This document shows positions 51,442 to 64,000 of a DNA stretch of 64,000 nucleotides, in pieces. The stretch's first letter is position 1, and every line of letters starts with the position of its first letter. The notes beneath the pieces were generated by a model, which saw only the letters and a list, made by a program, of their open reading frames with translations, had not been told where the DNA came from and did not search any database. The DNA lies in assembly GCA_008501765.1 (NCBI GenBank), contig QQUE01000002.1, positions 618,336-682,335 of the forward strand, written 5' to 3'. The stretch comes from Calditrichota bacterium. GTDB lineage: Bacteria > Zhuqueibacterota > Zhuqueibacteria > Zhuqueibacterales > Geothermadaptataceae. Both the position numbers and the translations under genes were made by a program.

Positions 51442-52116
51442 TTAACTTGGTTTTATATACTCAACTCTTTTGTTCTTTGAATTAAGGTTGTTTTCTTTTA
51501 ATACTTTTCTGAGTTGAAAAAATCCAATTTGTACACTTCCATATTTCGGGCTTCTCAAAATCTTTTTCAATTTTAGAACACCAACCATCGGATTTTCAGT
51601 TGCGGCACGAATTACATAATCATCAGAAGAAAGGGCGCTAGAATGCGGGCTGGAATAAGATTCCTCAGTATAACTCTCTCCCTGAGATATTTCATCTGGA
51701 GCAGAATCACCGTATTCATTTGATGGTTCTGGTGCGTGACTTGGTGCAACGGCAGCAGTTACCCCTTCAAAATTATTGACAGCCTCTTCCAGCGTATCGA
51801 AGGCTTTGATAATATAATGAAATTCCAGCAACTCAAATACTTCAAATACATCGGGGATCATTCGAATAAGTTTTAAATCTCCCCCTCTTTCCCGAATACC
51901 CTTAATTTCACTTATAAAAATTCCCCAACCAGCGCTGCTTATATAATCAACATTACCGAGGTCGATGATAATTTTGTAGGTGTTGGCTTTAATTAAGGTA
52001 TTTAATGAATGTTCCAACTCGGCCGACGTAGTTGTGTCGATGTACCCACCAACCTTTATAACTGCGATATTCCTGTTCGCACCAGTACGTTCAACCGACA
52101 CTTGAATACCTTCCAT
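51442..52116 (-). CDS. STAS anti-sigma antagonist with a C-terminal HTH-like module
   Basis: A 224-residue protein. Residues 1-115 form a STAS domain of the RsbV/SpoIIAA type: IAVIKVGGYIDTTTSAELEH, IIIDLGNVDYISSAGWG, where the phosphorylatable Ser should be in the S60-S61 pair. Residues about 116-170 are an acidic, Ser-rich linker. Residues 175-224 form a basic module aligning without gaps with residues 768-814 of the kinase-phosphatase chimera encoded upstream (15 of 47 identical, including KYG, LN-x-KN-x-R and a final YI). STAS proteins usually end after about 110 residues. It has its own strong promoter, 90 bases after the chimera gene, and is the likely substrate of that protein. Confidence 0.88.
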   Translation of the reverse strand: MEGIQVSVERTGANRNIAVIKVGGYIDTTTSAELEHSLNTLIKANTYKIIIDLGNVDYISSAGWGIFISEIKGIRERGGDLKLIRMIPDVFEVFELLEFHYIIKAFDTLEEAVNNFEGVTAAVAPSHAPEPSNEYGDSAPDEISQGESYTEESYSSPHSSALSSDDYVIRAATENPMVGVLKLKKILRSPKYGSVQIGFFQLRKVLKENNLNSKNKRVEYIKPS

Positions 52117-52158
52117 GGTTATCTCCTAAAGATATTTTCTGCAAATTAAGCATTAAAT

Positions 52159-52187
52159 AATATACAATTCGTGTTAGATAATGTCAA
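52159..52187 (-). promoter_or_regulatory. near-consensus promoter of the STAS gene
   Basis: On the minus strand a perfect TTGACA (52182-52187), 17 bases and TATATT (52159-52164). The start near 52152 gives a leader of about 36 bases with AGGAG before the ATG. Confidence 0.85.
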
Positions 52188-52206
52188 TGGAAACGAATGG
52201 AATGTA

Positions 52207-55200
52207 TTATTTATGCCCGATTAAATCCAACGCTTTATTTATTTTAAGTTTAATATCTGCTCTCGAGGGATCATGCTTAAGAATTTTTTTCCATTGCTCA
52301 ACAGCTTTTGAATAATCACCTTTATTTGCGTAAATGACACCAATATTTTCATGTGCTGTGGCGTCTGTACTGTCCAGTTTTATAACGTCAGAATACGCTC
52401 CGATTGCATCATCGTAGCGGCCCGTGCGAAAGAAAGCATTTCCAAGTATGCTATGTGCCTCTTTAAAATCAGGATATTTTTCAACGGCATCATTAAATTT
52501 TAGAATGGCCTCGTCAAATTCTTTTCGTTTATAATACCGCAATCCTTCGATGAGCAATCCTTCTTTTTCTTTTAACTGATCTCGTCTCGCCTCACCCGTT
52601 ACAATATCTTGCTGTTTCAGGCCATTCCTGCTATTTTTCCGTTTCTTCACAAAAACTTCATGGGGATCCGTGAACATGGGCAGCATGTCCGCACCATCTG
52701 GCTCAGCGTCGTTTGCTGCTGAAAAAAGCTCTATAAAAATTCCTGTATCATCTGTTTTGTCATGAGGAAATTTTTCATCCTCCTTAAAATCGCCCGATTT
52801 ACCATCCGTAACCTCGATAAATGGAGAGGCATTTTCATCATCCGCATCCGAGCTCGTGAGGTCTGTGCTGAGCAATTCCAGAGTCTCATCTTTAAAGCCA
52901 CGCTCCTCTGGCAATTGTTCATCTAAATCACTCTCAGCCTCAGAATCACTATTCTGTGGTAATACCTCATCCGTTGTCGTATTGGCGAGGTTTTTCTTTT
53001 CCTCTATTAAATTACCGTCATCTTCTTCCGAAACTTGACTGATTTCTTCCTGATCAACAAAAATAGATGACGACGAATCATCGGCAAAACTGTTTGAAAT
53101 TTCTTGTTGCAGAAGATCATCCACGGCATCATAAGTTGAGGAATTATTGGAACGATCCGAATTAACATCATAATCATCGCCATGTGCGTCGGCTTCAACT
53201 TCTGTCTCAAATTCATCATCCTCGTCACTAGACTTCTCTCCGCCCTGTAATATATCGAGAAAAGAAAGAGAATCTTCTTCTAACTCTGCTTCATTTGTCG
53301 CTTCGGCATCCTGCAATTCACCTGTTTCGGAGTCGGTTGTTTCCGTTGCAGCCCCGGGCTGGCTTTCATCATCATCCGGCTTTTGCAGTAATTCTTCCAG
53401 AGGTTGAGAAATGGAATCACTTTCCACCTCAGTTGTTTCGACATTTTCTTCTTTTTGCGAGATATCAACTTCAGTGGTTTTTTCCGTTTTAGTTTCTGGC
53501 ACAACCGTTTCTGCTACAGAAATAGGCTCTTCTTCCGGTTCTTCTTTTCGATCAATAAGAATTCGGCCATCCAATGTTAACATTGGGGTGCCCGGTGCTT
53601 TAATTCGTTTTTTGTTGCGTGCACCGCGGGCAATATAAGCTTCGCGCAGATTTTTCGTGTTGAGCCGGCTACGGACAAGCTCGTCATAAATTTTCTTTTC
53701 CGTGATTATTGTAAAACCATACTTTTCCGTGTTTAATTCTTCGCTAATTCTTTTCGCACCATATTCAGGATGGTTTTTTATAATATCGAAAATTTTCGTT
53801 TTGTCTTCGATGCTAAAATGCTTGGCTTCCAGGGACACTTCTTCATCGATTTCATAAGCATCAACACCATGCTCATCAAAGGTCTTTTTATATTTATTGT
53901 AATATGCATAGGTCGTGATTCCTGCCTTTTCGCAGGCTTCCCGGATATTTGTCCCGGACTCAATTTCCTGATGCGCCAATTTTGCACGACGCAATTCCTC
54001 TTTTTCCGAGTTTGATTCTTCTTTTATCGTAACGCAGGTGATATCATCGTATTGGAGGTTTCCTTCGATAAATGTATCAATTTCCAGGCGCAGCTTGTCG
54101 ACAAAATCTTCCGCATTCAGCTTGCCACCCTGGCGGATAATTTGCAGTAACCTTTCTTCGCCGAACAGCTGGCGTCGGCCATTCATCGCCTCCGTAATCC
54201 CATCCGTGTACAGTAAAACAATGTCATCCTCTGTCATCTGAATAGTATCCGATTCGATGGATTGCCGGAACAGGTCTTTTTCTGCCAATTGGATTCCAAT
54301 TGGAAATCCTTTTGGATTTAAATAGTAGGTCTTTTCTGTACTTGGACGATACAAAATCATCGGATTGTGGCCAGCACTGGCAAAGTTTAAACGACGGCGT
54401 TTCGCATCAATTATCACATAAAAAACAGTGACAAACATCCCCTTTTTCATATCGGTCGCGACAAACTCATTCACCCTTGCTAAAACTTCAGCCGCATCAT
54501 GCACGCCGCGCGCTTCGGTTCGCAGGGCCGTTCGAATCATCGTCATTACCAAAGATCCGGGAACACCTTTACCCGAGACATCAGCCACAACGACACCAAG
54601 CGTATCTTTGTCCACCTGAACAAAGTCATAATAATCACCGCCAACTTCTTTCGCGGCTTCATAATAAGATGAGATTTCGCATCCCTCAAGTTTCGGGACT
54701 TCGGAGGGGAGCAAGGTTTGCTGGATCTCTTGAGCAACCTGCATTTCCTTCTGCAAGCGTTCCTGCTCAGCGAGATTTTTTTGCGATTCCCGAAATTTGG
54801 TGGTCATCTCGCTAAATGCTTGCGCTATTTCGCCAATTTCAGTTGAGGCGTCGATATCCATTTCATCGTCAACCTCACCGTGGTCGATGGCTCGAATCCA
54901 GGATGCCAGTTTTTTAAAAGGATTTAGGAGAATGTAAATAAGAACAAAAACACCGACATATGCCAATATCAATATGGACAATGTTAATTGAAAATATGCC
55001 CAACGTAAAGTGGAAATTTCGGAATCAACTTTTTCTTTTAATGCCAAAACATGGATTTTACCGTACTTTTCACCGGTAAACGGGTAATGTACCGGAATAC
55101 TAAAATCATAAACTTCTGCTGTATTTAACCGGTCATTTTCAGCCACCAATTCAAAGTTATATAATTTTACCGAATCGGAAAGCTGCACCACTTCTGCGGG

Positions 55201-56073
55201 TAAACGCGGGTATTCAGTTCCATATTTCGCACCTTGCCAGTTAATATTGATATGCCCGGAAATTAAATTTTCACGGTTATCAACAACAAACAAATCGATG
55301 ATTTGAGCCTTCTTTTCCTCCAAAATAGGCTCAACGGTCAGAGAAATTTCATCATAATACTCATTGCGCAAAATATCTTTTCGTTTCGATTCATCGGCTA
55401 ATTCAAGATTGTTTTTGGCGAGGGATTCCAAATTAAATTTGGCTGTCTGTCCAATACTATTAAACCGGTTGAATGCCTCGCGTGTTTTTTCGGAACCCGC
55501 TTTAAAATACAGATAGCCATAACTTCCCATAACCGCGACAGTAAAAGCCAGCGTTATTCGCCAAAAATATTGGCCTTTTAATGTGAAAGGAATACCTTGA
55601 GCAGATTTTAAAACATCGGGACGGGTGCTGGTTTTTTTCTTGCTTCTGTCCCGGTACTTGGTCATCCGCAGTTCATTGCCTTCTTCCGTCTTGCGATAAT
55701 CAATTTCATCCATCAATTTGCGGATGATGAAGATTCCAAGACCGCCTTTTTTACCAATTTCGACGTACCGGTCCAAATCCGGAGCTTTTACCGTGCGTGG
55801 ATCAAAATACTTTCCGGTATCGATGAGGCTAACCGTGGCACTGTTCTTACGGATGATTACACGCAACAAGATAAAGCCCGGTTCGCTCTGTTCCCGGTAA
55901 GCGTGACGAATGATATTGGTTCCCGCTTCATCGATTCCCAGTTTATAGGCGTTGATGATTTTATTGGAGAGGCCGTATTTATTGCCGACCCGAGTAACAA
56001 AATCACGAAGTTCACCAAGATAATCGATATGAGCAGGGACTTTTAACTGCTCTTTGATAACATCTTTAAACAA
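52207..56073 (-). CDS. chimeric kinase/phosphatase: RsbW-like, HAMP, SpoIIE, transposase-type HTH, TPR
   Basis: A 1288-residue membrane protein. In order: RsbW-like HATPase at about 1-145 (N box DEAGTNIIRHAY, G box GKKGGLGIFIIRKL); membrane segments at about 172-190 and 361-386 around a sensor domain; HAMP (about 386-440) and coiled coil; SpoIIE/PP2C phosphatase at about 455-685 (EVGGDYYDF, VVADVSGKGVPGSLVM, SAGHNPMILYR, DDITCVTI). Next come an HTH near 698-735 (ACEKAGITTYAYYNKYKK) and a second module at 768-814 starting HPEYGAKRISEEL, both like IS3/IS481 integrase N-termini. A very acidic linker (about 830-1130) and TPRs (about 1170-1285) end it. It probably phosphorylates and dephosphorylates the neighbouring STAS protein. 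The start is TTG, the only standard choice after the in-frame stop. It lies 16 bases after the barrel gene. Confidence 0.9.
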   Translation of the reverse strand: MFKDVIKEQLKVPAHIDYLGELRDFVTRVGNKYGLSNKIINAYKLGIDEAGTNIIRHAYREQSEPGFILLRVIIRKNSATVSLIDTGKYFDPRTVKAPDLDRYVEIGKKGGLGIFIIRKLMDEIDYRKTEEGNELRMTKYRDRSKKKTSTRPDVLKSAQGIPFTLKGQYFWRITLAFTVAVMGSYGYLYFKAGSEKTREAFNRFNSIGQTAKFNLESLAKNNLELADESKRKDILRNEYYDEISLTVEPILEEKKAQIIDLFVVDNRENLISGHININWQGAKYGTEYPRLPAEVVQLSDSVKLYNFELVAENDRLNTAEVYDFSIPVHYPFTGEKYGKIHVLALKEKVDSEISTLRWAYFQLTLSILILAYVGVFVLIYILLNPFKKLASWIRAIDHGEVDDEMDIDASTEIGEIAQAFSEMTTKFRESQKNLAEQERLQKEMQVAQEIQQTLLPSEVPKLEGCEISSYYEAAKEVGGDYYDFVQVDKDTLGVVVADVSGKGVPGSLVMTMIRTALRTEARGVHDAAEVLARVNEFVATDMKKGMFVTVFYVIIDAKRRRLNFASAGHNPMILYRPSTEKTYYLNPKGFPIGIQLAEKDLFRQSIESDTIQMTEDDIVLLYTDGITEAMNGRRQLFGEERLLQIIRQGGKLNAEDFVDKLRLEIDTFIEGNLQYDDITCVTIKEESNSEKEELRRAKLAHQEIESGTNIREACEKAGITTYAYYNKYKKTFDEHGVDAYEIDEEVSLEAKHFSIEDKTKIFDIIKNHPEYGAKRISEELNTEKYGFTIITEKKIYDELVRSRLNTKNLREAYIARGARNKKRIKAPGTPMLTLDGRILIDRKEEPEEEPISVAETVVPETKTEKTTEVDISQKEENVETTEVESDSISQPLEELLQKPDDDESQPGAATETTDSETGELQDAEATNEAELEEDSLSFLDILQGGEKSSDEDDEFETEVEADAHGDDYDVNSDRSNNSSTYDAVDDLLQQEISNSFADDSSSSIFVDQEEISQVSEEDDGNLIEEKKNLANTTTDEVLPQNSDSEAESDLDEQLPEERGFKDETLELLSTDLTSSDADDENASPFIEVTDGKSGDFKEDEKFPHDKTDDTGIFIELFSAANDAEPDGADMLPMFTDPHEVFVKKRKNSRNGLKQQDIVTGEARRDQLKEKEGLLIEGLRYYKRKEFDEAILKFNDAVEKYPDFKEAHSILGNAFFRTGRYDDAIGAYSDVIKLDSTDATAHENIGVIYANKGDYSKAVEQWKKILKHDPSRADIKLKINKALDLIGHK

Positions 56074-58075: not shown

Positions 58076-61000
58076 TCATCGAATCACAGCAACTGTGGTT
58101 TTTGCGATATTGGAACCGGCTTTAATATAAGCCACATAAATGCCACTTAAAACAACCTGATTGGCGCCGTTTCTTCCATTCCAGGTAATCGTTCGTGCCT
58201 CACCACCACCCAATCCCTCCGGCTCCGTTTCGGCAAATTCACGATGATAAACCAGTTCACCAAAAAGGGTGTACACATCAAACGTTACAGTAGAAGGCTC
58301 GAGTAATGTGTAGGAGAAACGTGTCGTTCCGGTATTGGGATTAAATGGATTCGGATAATTGAAAAAATTTGTTGAGAAGTCACTACCGACGATAACCATC
58401 GCCTTGGAAGATATCTGCAAATTATCGCGCGCATTGCCATTTTTATCTACCAATTCGAGCCCAACCAGGGCGCGACTGCCGTGGTCTTGCGCATTTATGT
58501 AGGATTTCTCACTAATCCGCAACGAAAACTTTTTATCTTTAGTCCCACCTTTTATCTTGCCGTAAAGTGAAATGACATAAAGCGAATCAGGGACCAGTTT
58601 CAGGGTGTCGAGAAAAACGGTTTCCATCCAGTTTTCATCAAAATCAACCGGGTTGATCGCGGTATTCAAAATCACGTTCTCCGTATCTTCCAGAATCTGC
58701 CGTGCGGACAAACTTTCGAGTACTTCGTTTGCAATGAGCGATTCTCCGGCTGCGTCGAAAACATCAACTTTTAACGACAGCAAATCGATCAAACTTGCAT
58801 ATTCGTCACCTTTGTTTGTGAAACCGAGGCGAAGTAACTCAACAGCATCCTGGCCTTCTGCGACCACTGAATTCGCCACCACGTCCATCTCCCGCATTTC
58901 GAGCTGGCCACTGTTTGTGCGAATCGGAATTGAGATATTCGTTTGGGTGAAATTAACGGTCAAGCCACTGTTTTCATCCAAAGGCAAGCTGAATAACTCA
59001 ATTTCAATTGTCTCAGTTTCTGTTTTACTTTCCGGAGCAGTAATCACCCAGGAAGCCGTGCCACCGAGAGTACCGACGCTTTGTTCTTTGTTTAGTGAGT
59101 CGGTAACGTAGCCCGGCGGTGGATCCTTTAACCGGACATTTATCGTTGTTCCGTTTTGTAAATTAGCCGTTCCTAATTTAATCAGGTCTGCCTGAATGGT
59201 AAATTTCTGATTTGGCGAGACGATTTTATCCGTGGCGGATGCCGGAGAAACGATTTCTGCGGTGAAGGAATAGGACGGCTTCTTGACTGTCGTAACAACC
59301 ACTTTTCCCGATTCGCCCGGCAACACATCGTCGCCGCTTGTGGCATCTTTGTAGCTCCATACGATTGCGAAAGAATCAACCGACGCATTGGCTGGAGCGG
59401 TCACTTTCCACTCAAATGTTTCACCAACCGAATTAAAATTATCAATCGAAGCCGGTTGACGTGAGGCATTTTCAATACTAAAATCTGTTCCAGCCATTTG
59501 CTTCAACTGCAAATCAACATCTTTAACATCGAGACCGATCAATTTGGCCTTTATTCTAAACTGTTGATCCGTGCTGATGATGTTGTCCGTCGCACCAATG
59601 GGTTCAAATATGGCAAAATCACTGATCAAAATTGACCCGGTTTCACGAACAGCGATATTGACATGCAGTTCATTACCACCCGGGACCAGCGCGGCCGGTT
59701 GGCCGGTATAAATATCGCTCGGTCGCGGATCGATCAAATTTACTTTAATTGATGTTTGCAACGCCTTGTTCGGCATTTGCAAGCGCCAAATATTTATATC
59801 ATCAACTTCAACACCGGTTAAAGTATCTGTCTGCGCAGGCGTCCCGGTAAATGTAATTTGAGAATTACTTGTATCAATAACGATCGTTGCGGTATTTGAT
59901 ACTCCTGCCGAACCGCTGTTTTGTAAAATTACCCGCAGATCATACGCTTGCCCCATGGCTAAACTCAAACTGGTCTCACCACCGTCCAACACTAAATTCA
60001 ACAACGCCTTGGGAACAAGATCCACGTTCAGGGATGTTTGTTTCGTGTGCAGGCCGCCGTTTCCGTCCGTGCCTTGCAGCGTGACATTTAATGATTTTGT
60101 TTCTGTTTCTGTCGCCGAAGCCGGCGCAATGATGTTCCACTCGACGTAGCCCTGTTCATCGTCATTCACTACGGGTAACACGGGCAAATTGCCCGTCTCA
60201 GAACCTGAATAAGCGAAACCTGCCGGCAGAACTAATGTAGCAGACGGATTCAATAATCGACGCCAGCCGCGCAGAAAAAGCCGCAGCGTAAATGTGGATC
60301 CGGAGGATATTTTATTATTCTCTGCCGCACCCTGCGGTGAAACAATTCGAAGTGAATCAATCTCAAAAGCGAGGTCGCCAACGGAGTAAAGCAGGGTATC
60401 GCTGTTGTTAAATTGCTGTGCCGGATTGCCGCTGTTTATATCTAATGGTGTGCCTAAAAACCGGACACTCACCGGATCGCCACCCGGAATTGAGCTGTTT
60501 GCGTCGGGCGAAATTAAACGCCACGTCAAAGACGGCGCGTTCATGTCAAAAGTAACTTCTTTCGTCTGAACAGAATCTGTTGAAAAGCTGTATCCCGCCG
60601 GAAAGTCAATTCTTAGCTGCCCCATGCCTGACAGCCCGGCAAGGCCACGATTTGTGACCGTTGCTGTTACCCTAAACTCCTGATCTTTTTGCAATTGCTG
60701 ATGAATAAAATTTGTTGAAGCTGTAACTTGCAGCTCCGCCGGGACCTGGGTAAAAAAGCGCACTTCATTCTTAACAGGTTCACCGATATTGGCGCCATTT
60801 CCGCTTGAAGTAACCGTTGCCGTGTCGAGAATAGCGGTGACTGTTTCACCAATATCGTTTTGGCTGGGGCCGGCTGTTATCGGAAAATCAATGGTTTTGA
60901 TTTCGTTTGGTTGAATGGTTGCAATTTCACCTGTGAGCTCGGAAAATGCACCACCGACAAATTGATTTTTTAATCGAACACTGGCTTCCTGAACCGCATC

Positions 61001-64000
61001 AACACCGTTGTTTTTAACGGAGACACGAATTGAAAAGGACTGGTCTGTATTTACAATTCCGTCGTTGTTTACCACATTTGGCGCTATTATTTCTGCTTTA
61101 ATTATTAAAACTGAAGAATTTTCTTCGATCAGCTTATTGGTGTTGCCGGCCGCGGAAATGGCCGCGCCGGTATTTACGTCTGTCGCGCCAAGGTTGACCG
61201 AAATCGCGGCATCGCCACTTTGAATACCGGTGCGGTTGATCGTATAAACTATGTCTGATTCCTGCCCATTGCCAGTCAGATCAACCGTTCCGGGTGAGCT
61301 GACTGTATAGTTCTGCGTATCATTCTGTGAATTAACAACGAATCCCAAATCAGCCGCCTGTGGTTTTAATCGGGCTGTTGCTTCACCATTATTTTTTATA
61401 GTGGCTGTTATCGTCCAATCTGAAAGCTGATTGGCAAAAACTGAAGCTGCTGATGGAACAACCTGGACTATTTGTATGGCTGCCGGGGTTTGTAATATGG
61501 CTTGTTCACTTGAATCAATGGCTGCACCTGGTGTAATTTTTACACCCGAGTTCAATCCTTTTGCAGCATAGATTGACGCTGTGAACGTTTCTGAGCCGGA
61601 ACGGTCCGCTGCGGTAATACTAATAGGAATTTCTGTGGTGGATTCGCCAGGAATCGAATAAGCTGAACTCAGTGGTAAAAAACTTGAAGGCGAGGTAATT
61701 TCATCACTCGCCAGCGACACCACAACACTATCCAGCGACTCCTGACCCGTATTTCGAATCTTCACCCGTATCTGAAATTCCTGTAGCCTGTTGACGGAGG
61801 GAGCGTTTAAACTGGAGATATAAGTCGAATCAATAGTTAAGGCTGCCGGTGTTTGAACAACCACCTGTTGCAATTCAACCGCCGTTGTTGAATCTTTGAA
61901 AGTCACACTGGAGTTTTTATCATAACCCCGGATCACGGCCCCGATGTTGAGCGATCCCACACTTGCTCCGGTTGTGTTGACAATAAATGACAACGTATCG
62001 ATGCCGCTATTCGTCAGAAACGTATTTCCACTTGACAATTGTACCGGGCTGGTTATAGAATATCCGGTTTCATCACTAAATAAATAATGCGTTGAATCGG
62101 TGCTAAAATTTATCTCTGCATCCGCTTCACCCAGGTTTTGCAGTACCGTTTTAACATTCCATGGCGTTGTTTGGTTGGCTGTAACTGTTGCAGGTACAAT
62201 TATTTCTTTAATTGAAACAGAAGCTGCTGTCTGCACTGTGAACGAACTGTTGGCGTCTGTCAAATCGATCAGGCTGCCATCCGAGCCAATGAAGTGGGCA
62301 TCTATCGATATTAATCCGGTCGTCGAGCCAGTCGTATCGATTGCAAAATTATAATTTCCCTGACTGTGCGGCCCAATCGCAGTCAATGCGGGTGGAGTAA
62401 TCGTAAATTCATTGGTTTTTTCAACCGCACCTGCGAAGAAGCGCAGGTCCAGACTTGTTACATTAACGGTGCTTGAGCTGCTGTTATCAACCACAACCTG
62501 TATCGTCCACTGTTTTGACATGTTTGCCGTTACTTTTGCCTGACTCGGAATAACGGAGACAATAGTAACCGATTCCGAGCTTTCAACTGTCCACGTTCCG
62601 GTTGCACTGGCGCCATCAAGGTCTGTCGCCTGCAATCCTGAATTTGCGTCATGAGCTGTTAATTCTGCGTCAAGAGTAATGGTTCCTATTTGTGCTTGAG
62701 AAAGAACATCCACCTTATAATCAAGCTGAACATTGCCTCCGGTTCCCGGAATAATTGTCGGGTTGCCCGTCACCGGCGAAACGATATATCCCGTAGAAAC
62801 ATCCGTATTCCCATTTTTAAAAATCAGCTTTATATTATCAATTACTGCATTGGCTGTTTCAGCATCTCCACCGGGTACATTGATGACGACACTAACGATA
62901 TGTCCTGCTGTTCCCTGATCAACCACCGCATCGACTGGTGTTACGGAAACGATGCCAACGGATGGATTTTTTTGAATATTCCACCGTGGAGCTCTGTTTT
63001 CTGCGGCAGAATCACTCACTGCGGTTCCAGATACCGTTCCATTTATTATACCGTCGACAATGACCGAATCAATGGCTGCACCCACTGTGATATCCACATT
63101 GTATGTGAGGGCAACCGATCCACCATTTCCGGGAATCGAGGTCACTTCCGGATTCATCCGGGTGATATTTTCAAATCCGGTCCATTCCGTTATCCCATCC
63201 GAAGCATGCGTAAAAACCGGATTCGCCGAGGTGATCGTAATATCCTGCGAACCATTGTTTTCAACCGTCAGAGTTAATTGGGCATCTTGTTGGCCCCGGG
63301 AAACCGTCGATGACGCAGTGGACACCGAAACGATACTCATACTTGTTAACGTCAGTTCTGTGCTACCGTTGGCTGAACCATTTGTGCTGCTGGCAAATAA
63401 GTTTGTCGTTCCACCCAGCGTCCCGGCCCGAAATGTAAAAACGAGCTTGCTGCTTGCGTCGGTTGCAATCTGGACACCGGCGATAGTTGGATTTATGTCA
63501 TTTAAAATTGTACCCAAATTTGCCTTGCTTAACGAAATAGTAAATTCTTTTGCAGCTCCAACATTATTTCCTTCCGAGTCTTTAATAATACTCGATGTCA
63601 CCGTTGTTTCTGCGACGCCATCAGCCGGTAAAACAGAAGATGCCGGAGTGAGAGTTACGCTCCCTGCTGGCACACCTGGATTAACAGTAACAATCGCTGA
63701 GCTCGGTGTGCCCGCTACTGGCGTGCCCGTCACAGTCACATTTCCTGTGAGACTTGGAGAAAAGACAGTTGTTGAGCCTGAAGATGGTGAAAACGAACCA
63801 CTGGCAGCGGACCATGTGACACTCTCATTGCCGATATAATTATTCTGTGCATCGTAGCCGGCGGCATAAATTGTTACCGATTCATCTGCCGTCATTGTAT
63901 GGGTCGAGAATGCTTCACCACCGCCGTTAATTGCCGTGCGCAGCAAAACGTAATCGATGCTGCCAAGGCTCACGGTGATCGTGCCCGAGTAAGCATCAAT
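58076..64000 (-). CDS. giant repeat surface protein with a C-terminal sorting domain, 5' end outside the window
   Basis: The frame is open through the right edge, so the 1975 visible residues are the C-terminal part; no start should be placed at the GTG at 63973. Visible N-terminal sequence has bacterial Ig-like (Big) features. Then come about ten repeats of roughly 150 residues of CARDB/Ig-like type, each with a V-Q-T-P-A-x-L-x-I start and a W-x-I-x-V-x-x-x-N-x-G core. The last about 95 residues have NYPNPFNPNTGTTRFSYTL, VTFDVYTLFGELVY and WNGRNGANQVVLSGIYVAYI, the FlgD-Ig-like sorting domain seen in type 9 cargo. A cell-surface or secreted role is likely. It is followed by a PorV-like gene after 12 bases. 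Confidence 0.9.
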   Translation of the reverse strand: MDAYSGTITVSLGSIDYVLLRTAINGGGEAFSTHTMTADESVTIYAAGYDAQNNYIGNESVTWSAASGSFSPSSGSTTVFSPSLTGNVTVTGTPVAGTPSSAIVTVNPGVPAGSVTLTPASSVLPADGVAETTVTSSIIKDSEGNNVGAAKEFTISLSKANLGTILNDINPTIAGVQIATDASSKLVFTFRAGTLGGTTNLFASSTNGSANGSTELTLTSMSIVSVSTASSTVSRGQQDAQLTLTVENNGSQDITITSANPVFTHASDGITEWTGFENITRMNPEVTSIPGNGGSVALTYNVDITVGAAIDSVIVDGIINGTVSGTAVSDSAAENRAPRWNIQKNPSVGIVSVTPVDAVVDQGTAGHIVSVVINVPGGDAETANAVIDNIKLIFKNGNTDVSTGYIVSPVTGNPTIIPGTGGNVQLDYKVDVLSQAQIGTITLDAELTAHDANSGLQATDLDGASATGTWTVESSESVTIVSVIPSQAKVTANMSKQWTIQVVVDNSSSSTVNVTSLDLRFFAGAVEKTNEFTITPPALTAIGPHSQGNYNFAIDTTGSTTGLISIDAHFIGSDGSLIDLTDANSSFTVQTAASVSIKEIIVPATVTANQTTPWNVKTVLQNLGEADAEINFSTDSTHYLFSDETGYSITSPVQLSSGNTFLTNSGIDTLSFIVNTTGASVGSLNIGAVIRGYDKNSSVTFKDSTTAVELQQVVVQTPAALTIDSTYISSLNAPSVNRLQEFQIRVKIRNTGQESLDSVVVSLASDEITSPSSFLPLSSAYSIPGESTTEIPISITAADRSGSETFTASIYAAKGLNSGVKITPGAAIDSSEQAILQTPAAIQIVQVVPSAASVFANQLSDWTITATIKNNGEATARLKPQAADLGFVVNSQNDTQNYTVSSPGTVDLTGNGQESDIVYTINRTGIQSGDAAISVNLGATDVNTGAAISAAGNTNKLIEENSSVLIIKAEIIAPNVVNNDGIVNTDQSFSIRVSVKNNGVDAVQEASVRLKNQFVGGAFSELTGEIATIQPNEIKTIDFPITAGPSQNDIGETVTAILDTATVTSSGNGANIGEPVKNEVRFFTQVPAELQVTASTNFIHQQLQKDQEFRVTATVTNRGLAGLSGMGQLRIDFPAGYSFSTDSVQTKEVTFDMNAPSLTWRLISPDANSSIPGGDPVSVRFLGTPLDINSGNPAQQFNNSDTLLYSVGDLAFEIDSLRIVSPQGAAENNKISSGSTFTLRLFLRGWRRLLNPSATLVLPAGFAYSGSETGNLPVLPVVNDDEQGYVEWNIIAPASATETETKSLNVTLQGTDGNGGLHTKQTSLNVDLVPKALLNLVLDGGETSLSLAMGQAYDLRVILQNSGSAGVSNTATIVIDTSNSQITFTGTPAQTDTLTGVEVDDINIWRLQMPNKALQTSIKVNLIDPRPSDIYTGQPAALVPGGNELHVNIAVRETGSILISDFAIFEPIGATDNIISTDQQFRIKAKLIGLDVKDVDLQLKQMAGTDFSIENASRQPASIDNFNSVGETFEWKVTAPANASVDSFAIVWSYKDATSGDDVLPGESGKVVVTTVKKPSYSFTAEIVSPASATDKIVSPNQKFTIQADLIKLGTANLQNGTTINVRLKDPPPGYVTDSLNKEQSVGTLGGTASWVITAPESKTETETIEIELFSLPLDENSGLTVNFTQTNISIPIRTNSGQLEMREMDVVANSVVAEGQDAVELLRLGFTNKGDEYASLIDLLSLKVDVFDAAGESLIANEVLESLSARQILEDTENVILNTAINPVDFDENWMETVFLDTLKLVPDSLYVISLYGKIKGGTKDKKFSLRISEKSYINAQDHGSRALVGLELVDKNGNARDNLQISSKAMVIVGSDFSTNFFNYPNPFNPNTGTTRFSYTLLEPSTVTFDVYTLFGELVYHREFAETEPEGLGGGEARTITWNGRNGANQVVLSGIYVAYIKAGSNIAKTTVAVIR

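Follow-up and report, generated by a model that had tools for sequence, protein, structure and literature searches.

In the window, by which we mean the whole 64,000-nucleotide stretch of DNA analysed, a gene for a STAS-domain protein (STAS1) lies next to one for an RsbW-SpoIIE chimera, and the two products resemble one another in a segment outside the domains from which they take their names. The locus raises the question of whether this segment is a truly homologous module and, if so, what it would do on both an enzyme and its likely substrate. The reading frames on which the question rests could be taken over with confidence, as our ORF check found the coordinates, strands and residue numbers given for both in an earlier, sequence-only reading to be exact.

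The STAS1-chimera pair and its common module

STAS1 (51442..52116, minus strand, as are all parts of the two genes given here) is an ORF of 224 amino acids, comprising a STAS domain, an acidic linker and a C-terminal helix-turn-helix (HTH) module. The STAS domain (residues 14-112; 51781..52077) is matched by Pfam PF01740 at 2.4e-17, and orthologues align over residues 1-222. Ser61 in the motif ISSAGWG (51934..51936) is the predicted phosphoserine; it is invariant in 26 of 26 aligned STAS proteins, and from the known family alignments we take it to be the counterpart of the phosphoserines of RsbV, SpoIIAA and SypA. A linker that varies in the alignment and has a net charge of -8 by residue count (residues 118-163; 51628..51765) leads to the module (residues 164-222; 51451..51627), which matches the chimera by profile at E 1e-15. 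AlphaFold2 models it as one HTH (pLDDT 92.9, pTM 0.80) with helices at residues 164-174, 180-187, 199-208 and 214-221.

The chimera gene (52207..56073, minus strand) is an ORF with a TTG start and encodes a membrane protein of 1288 amino acids. It begins with an RsbW-type HATPase kinase domain (residues 13-139; 55657..56037; Pfam HATPase_c_2 at 6e-27, RsbW profile at 5e-23), in which the residues of the N, G1 and G2 boxes are invariant among orthologues where covered. The membrane-sensor region that follows (residues about 168-427; 54793..55571; recognized from a HAMP match at 7e-7 and from hydropathy) has two predicted transmembrane helices, an extracytoplasmic domain and a HAMP domain at 378-427; hydropathy peaks at 358-386, and the first transmembrane helix was assigned by inspection to about 169-189. 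Next comes a SpoIIE-type PPM phosphatase domain (residues 489-684; 54022..54609; Pfam 8e-50); the metal-binding aspartates 480, 498, 624, 676 and 677 are invariant in 22 of 22 aligned chimeras. The module then appears as two HTH units, HTH1 (residues 691-735; 53869..54003), placed by its AlphaFold2 helices and by the IS481 profile, which matches from position 1, and HTH2 (residues 755-820; 53614..53811), placed by hhalign, HMM and AlphaFold2 helices. A highly acidic, low-complexity linker of 335 residues (residues 836-1170; 52564..53568; net charge -75 by count) stands between the module and a terminal TPR domain (residues 1173-1285; 52219..52557; Pfam TPR families), and the overall length of the chimera differs among orthologues. 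Wherever the alignments reach, the catalytic residues and the STAS serine show no variation, so that by homology the pair would constitute a working kinase-phosphatase-STAS switch.

The sequence-only reading had aligned STAS1 residues 175-221 with chimera residues 768-814, ungapped and with 15 of 47 positions identical, and BLASTP reproduced this alignment exactly, at a single-comparison E of 0.007. The best ungapped score was 58, against a mean of 37 in 60 shuffles (sd 4.3, maximum 55), none of which reached 58; by its E-value and these scores the STAS-chimera pair by itself is therefore modestly significant. Profiles of the two modules, built separately from 22-23 orthologous STAS1/chimera pairs, align in hhalign at E 1.2e-15 (probability 98.6, 57 columns), which identifies HTH2 as the chimera homolog of the STAS module. 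Reciprocal HMM searches covered all ORFs of 25 loci: the STAS-module HMM retrieved the chimeras at 5e-13 to 7e-7, the next ORF scoring 0.34, and the chimera-module HMM retrieved most STAS proteins at 1e-10 to 0.005, with two STAS copies (L001 and L005) near or at background. A fold comparison of the two segments, set beforehand, gave no sign of unrelated folds: AlphaFold2 spaces the four helices alike in the STAS1 module and in HTH2. Chance similarity, considered as an explanation, was rejected on the profile match and the shuffles, and on these profile and fold comparisons the module in STAS1 and in the chimera is homologous.

The association reaches beyond the window. A genome scan returned 24 STAS1 relatives with identity of at least 47%, 22 of them matching over nearly the full length, in records mostly labelled KSB1, Calditrichaeota or similar. 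The chimera lies immediately upstream of STAS1 in nearly all loci with a contig long enough, locus L024 being the exception, and both proteins of all these orthologous pairs carry the module.

Relationship of the module to IS481-type transposases

Chimera residues 690-822 correspond to the whole two-HTH N-terminus of IS481-type transposases, without the DDE domain. Residues 695-824 match positions 1-123 of the NCBIfam IS481 model (NF033577) at E 4e-7, a match under the curated whole-protein cut-off; positions beyond 124 are unmatched in the chimera, where the acidic linker comes next instead. An IS3/IS481-like HTH had been suspected in the sequence-only reading, and this match, below cut-off as it is, relates the module to the N-terminal HTH pair of the IS481 type. 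The same N-terminal match, again under cut-off, is found in nearly all genomes of the window's order and always without the catalytic part, and the module model in turn matches a DDE transposase from that order (L105). Order and sequence of both HTHs are as in IS481 transposases; the difference is that the latter have a DDE catalytic domain, whereas the chimera module has none and sits within a signaling protein. The turn of the chimera-type HTH2 (LNTEKYGF) is also longer than in the transposase of this order that we inspected.

AlphaFold2 builds the chimera module as two HTH units (pLDDT 82). VIA-align superimposes it on the paired domains of Pax6 and Pax5, on Tc3 transposase and on TnsB with Z of 4.9-5.9 over 96-115 residues, at an rmsd of about 11 over the full length, a likeness to paired and transposase domains that we regard as suggestive only. 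Taking the IS481 match, the AlphaFold2 model and VIA-align together, the bipartite HTH of transposase type is thus complete in the chimera, whereas STAS1 has only its second half, the second transposase HTH. Other searches gave less: Pfam on the chimera module reached 17.7 bits for HTH_21 (cut-off 28.1) and 17.4 bits for HTH_28 (cut-off 25), Foldseek of both models against the PDB returned no match under E 0.001, no real relative came out of a sequence search of the PDB, and the plasmid and viral collections contained no relative of the chimera module. Pfam matches of the STAS module alone, to H2TH_5 and DnaB_bind, were set aside as noise.

Among the module-bearing proteins, it is the STAS3 family, described below, whose recognition helix is closest to that of a transposase (VSRSTVYRWLRQAGLN in L087/L088). 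Its match to NF033577 covers positions 35-112, under the curated cut-off, and the STAS3 modules (L041:7290-8450, L087 and L088) may represent a separate capture from a transposase.

DNA binding is the main and a serious rival to a role in pairing. On that reading the module would still bind DNA; STAS1 and its module-bearing relatives STAS2 and STAS3 would sit on DNA as regulators, perhaps of polysaccharide operons, with their binding switched by phosphorylation, and the membrane-bound chimera would touch the same sites. The fold of the module is of a DNA-binding type, and the chimera module shows the weak structural likeness to the bipartite DNA-binding domains of Pax6/Pax5, Tc3 and TnsB noted above; the STAS modules are basic, with a net charge of +4.4 to +9.5 (about +8 in STAS1), and a transposase-like recognition helix is kept in STAS3 (e.g., VSRSTVYRWLRQAGLN). 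The chimera, however, is a membrane protein, and the recognition helix of its HTH2 now reads IYDEL. In its charge the chimera module is much like the homologous part of a genuine transposase from the window's order; this likeness speaks for DNA binding, and because of it charge was dropped as proof that the chimera module could not bind DNA. Together with the genomic evidence given below, these points lead us to consider DNA binding unlikely, while still deserving of attention.

That the module derives from transposase-type sequence also invites the reading that it is a functionless relic of transposon insertion and recombination. Against this, it is kept across the chimera orthologues and in 80+ genomes, some of its positions do not vary, the prediction for it is folded, and it is conserved where the linkers that set it apart are not; we rejected the relic on this conservation and hold it to be highly improbable.

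Distribution of the module across the phylum

The module is present in 81 of the 82 genomes of the window's phylum, including all 49 of high quality (49/49), with three to five copies in most; its co-occurrence in related genomes, an expectation set beforehand, is thus phylum-wide. When 31 genomes were re-searched for all matches, the 105 that were found all fell in chimera- or STAS-sized frames, and in 38 fetched loci each module lies within a chimera, STAS1, STAS2 or STAS3; no other module-bearing protein occurs among these 38 loci or the 105 matches in the 31 genomes. This restriction to an enzyme and its likely substrates is unlike what would be expected of free regulators, and counts against DNA binding. 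More than one chimera, two or three in number, occurs in some genomes of the phylum. Both proteins bear the module in a further 60 chimera-STAS1 pairs, one STAS1 being frameshifted; in this genome (G042, L103:9109 / L212) the frameshift splits STAS1 and leaves the module in a separate frame, possibly through an assembly error.

The window's own 5.9 Mb genome has four copies, in the chimera, STAS1, STAS2 and STAS3. The latter two answer the suggestion, made from the sequence alone, that a profile search might recover further STAS proteins with the module: both families lie in polysaccharide loci. On one side of STAS2 (L034 9637-10353) is a starch-synthase-like glycosyltransferase and on the other Wza/Wzc; the locus also has an epimerase, a sugar transferase and more glycosyltransferases, and it adjoins the RodA/PBP2/MreDCB genes. 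STAS2 holds the same exopolysaccharide-locus position in 20 of 20 examined genomes as well as in the window's own. STAS3 (L041 7290-8450, 386 aa) lies in a second polysaccharide locus, where it separates a Wzc-type protein from a TPR protein, and among the loci seen is restricted to the window's order. The neighbors of STAS2 and STAS3 include Wza, Wzc and sugar transferase genes, and no kinase or phosphatase of the chimera kind adjoins them; both would need an enzyme acting in trans. Matches to SpoIIE number 19 in this genome, and those of RsbW-like and STAS type about ten each; its classical SpoIIE/RsbW/STAS cassettes (e.g., C14:597-599k, C8:219-220k and C8:1067-1068k) are without the module. 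STAS2 and STAS3 are probably substrates of the same enzyme as STAS1.

The same distribution bears on a further alternative, in which the modules of enzyme and substrate both bind a common third partner, such as a scaffolding protein, the machinery of polysaccharide export or nucleoid DNA, and are joined only indirectly. The same module on both sides would suit such an arrangement, as would the additional acidic linker and TPR domain of the enzyme and the placement of two STAS partners within polysaccharide loci; no third gene common to the STAS1, STAS2 and STAS3 neighborhoods was seen, though, and no additional module protein among the fetched loci, and we judge a third partner improbable.

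The single genome with no module match is G006, 77% complete. Its STAS1 orthologue (L024), from the same phylum as the window, has a stop codon just after the STAS domain and has lost the module; no RsbW-SpoIIE fusion of the chimera type was found in this genome, and since it is only 77% complete the absent chimera may be a gap. In its STAS2 gene the contig stops short of the module position, and two genomes of the same family (G004 and G005) have the full set. The pattern is what loss of the enzyme, then of the tag, would look like, in a single incomplete case; the loss of the module from STAS1 in a genome lacking the chimera also speaks against DNA binding.

Some variation was seen among the chimeras themselves. 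Three genomes of one family (G025, G027 and G028) have additional, longer chimeras of 1861-1993 aa (L089:6694-12672, plus strand; L091 from 4761 and L094 from 5433, both minus strand), in which SpoIIE is followed directly by a degenerate HTH2, without HTH1; the one that was scanned (L089) has many TPRs at its end. Genomes G072 and G073 encode a second full chimera with both HTHs (L095:7440-10994 and L096 from 7656, both minus strand), adjoining a PorV-like gene. In the window, a 1965-aa ORF with apparently repeated Ig-like segments (58076-63973, minus strand; by inspection) seems to end in a PNPFNP-type C-terminal sorting signal and lies upstream of a PorV-like gene.

A proposed docking tag for a partner switch

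Co-divergence of the domains was assessed by mirror-tree analysis in 59 genomes, with partial correlations given all other domains. STAS-module distances are best correlated with HTH1 of the chimera (0.73 raw, 0.57 partial), against partial values of -0.17 for SpoIIE and -0.01 for the STAS domain of the same protein, and the STAS domain has a partial correlation of 0.36 with SpoIIE; the signal rests mainly on a small number of deep differences between clades, which makes permutation p-values too optimistic. Within the largest clade (45 genomes) the STAS module correlates with HTH1 (0.61) no more closely than with the sensor (0.66) or the kinase (0.62). The pattern is suggestive of two contacts, one between modules and one between STAS domain and phosphatase, and the chimera unit that it singles out is HTH1, although HTH2 is the homolog.

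The genome distribution, the co-absence and the mirror-tree pattern favor pairing over DNA binding. The sequence-only reading had proposed a domesticated module serving either purpose; that the module is real, homologous and related to transposase HTHs holds, while pairing and DNA binding are both still candidates. The interpretation to which we give slightly better than even weight is that the chimera switches STAS1, STAS2 and STAS3 and that the domesticated transposase module serves as a matched docking tag. The chimera would be a membrane-bound kinase-phosphatase, built of an RsbW-like kinase, sensor, HAMP and SpoIIE phosphatase, that both phosphorylates and dephosphorylates STAS1 at Ser61, as SypE does SypA in Vibrio fischeri. 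Domestication of the N-terminal double HTH of an IS481-type transposase would go back to an ancestor of the phylum; the enzyme would have retained the two HTHs, and every STAS substrate would bear a copy of the second. By binding to the enzyme module, the substrate module would present the STAS domain to the active sites of kinase and phosphatase, and the tag would insulate this system from the remaining STAS proteins, kinases and phosphatases of the cell. The switch would, we infer, control polysaccharide output. A docking tag is the simplest account of the distribution because the module is found on the enzyme and on distant substrates, not in self-contained cassettes. More tentatively, and with rather less than even confidence, we suggest that the single HTH of each STAS protein pairs in trans with the double HTH of the chimera, chiefly with HTH1, so that across the phylum one membrane enzyme would control STAS switches scattered over the genome, including those in exopolysaccharide loci.

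SypE/SypA is the closest worked example of such a switch; neither protein has an HTH module that we know of. In the symbiosis polysaccharide switch of V. fischeri, SypE has opposing serine kinase and phosphatase activities, and SypA, a STAS protein phosphorylated on Ser56 and encoded in a polysaccharide locus, controls biofilm formation (PMC4517449). Like the chimera, SypE is a single polypeptide in which kinase and phosphatase oppose each other, directed at a STAS protein whose serine is conserved; the polysaccharide-locus setting of SypA recurs in STAS2 and STAS3, whereas STAS1 adjoins the enzyme gene instead. SypE is a response regulator under a phosphorelay; the chimera combines a membrane sensor and HAMP domain with TPRs at its tail, and a Pfam scan of it gave no REC match. 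A further difference from SypE and SypA is that two or three STAS proteins are probably served by a single type of enzyme here. The RsbV/RsbW/RsbU and SpoIIAA/SpoIIAB/SpoIIE systems likewise consist of a STAS substrate, a GHKL kinase and a PPM phosphatase with the catalytic residues found here, and the kinase and phosphatase that are separate in RsbW/RsbU and SpoIIAB/SpoIIE are fused in the chimera.

The kinase/phosphatase/STAS switch itself is therefore known, and the new element is the module common to the enzyme and the STAS proteins; in a partial literature search, no paper turned up that describes an HTH or a transposase module in SpoIIE or STAS proteins. Specificity of PPM phosphatases is known from three loops of the catalytic domain, not from an added domain, and how these phosphatases and the opposing kinases choose among many STAS substrates is considered a major outstanding question (PMC11418112). 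Here a whole phylum has apparently added a separate, swappable, transposase-derived tag to an enzyme and its substrates, and the question of substrate choice becomes directly testable by removal or exchange of a 60-residue piece. The module would predict, without annotation, which STAS proteins go with which enzyme, and through it the polysaccharide loci of a poorly studied phylum would be linked to a membrane sensor.
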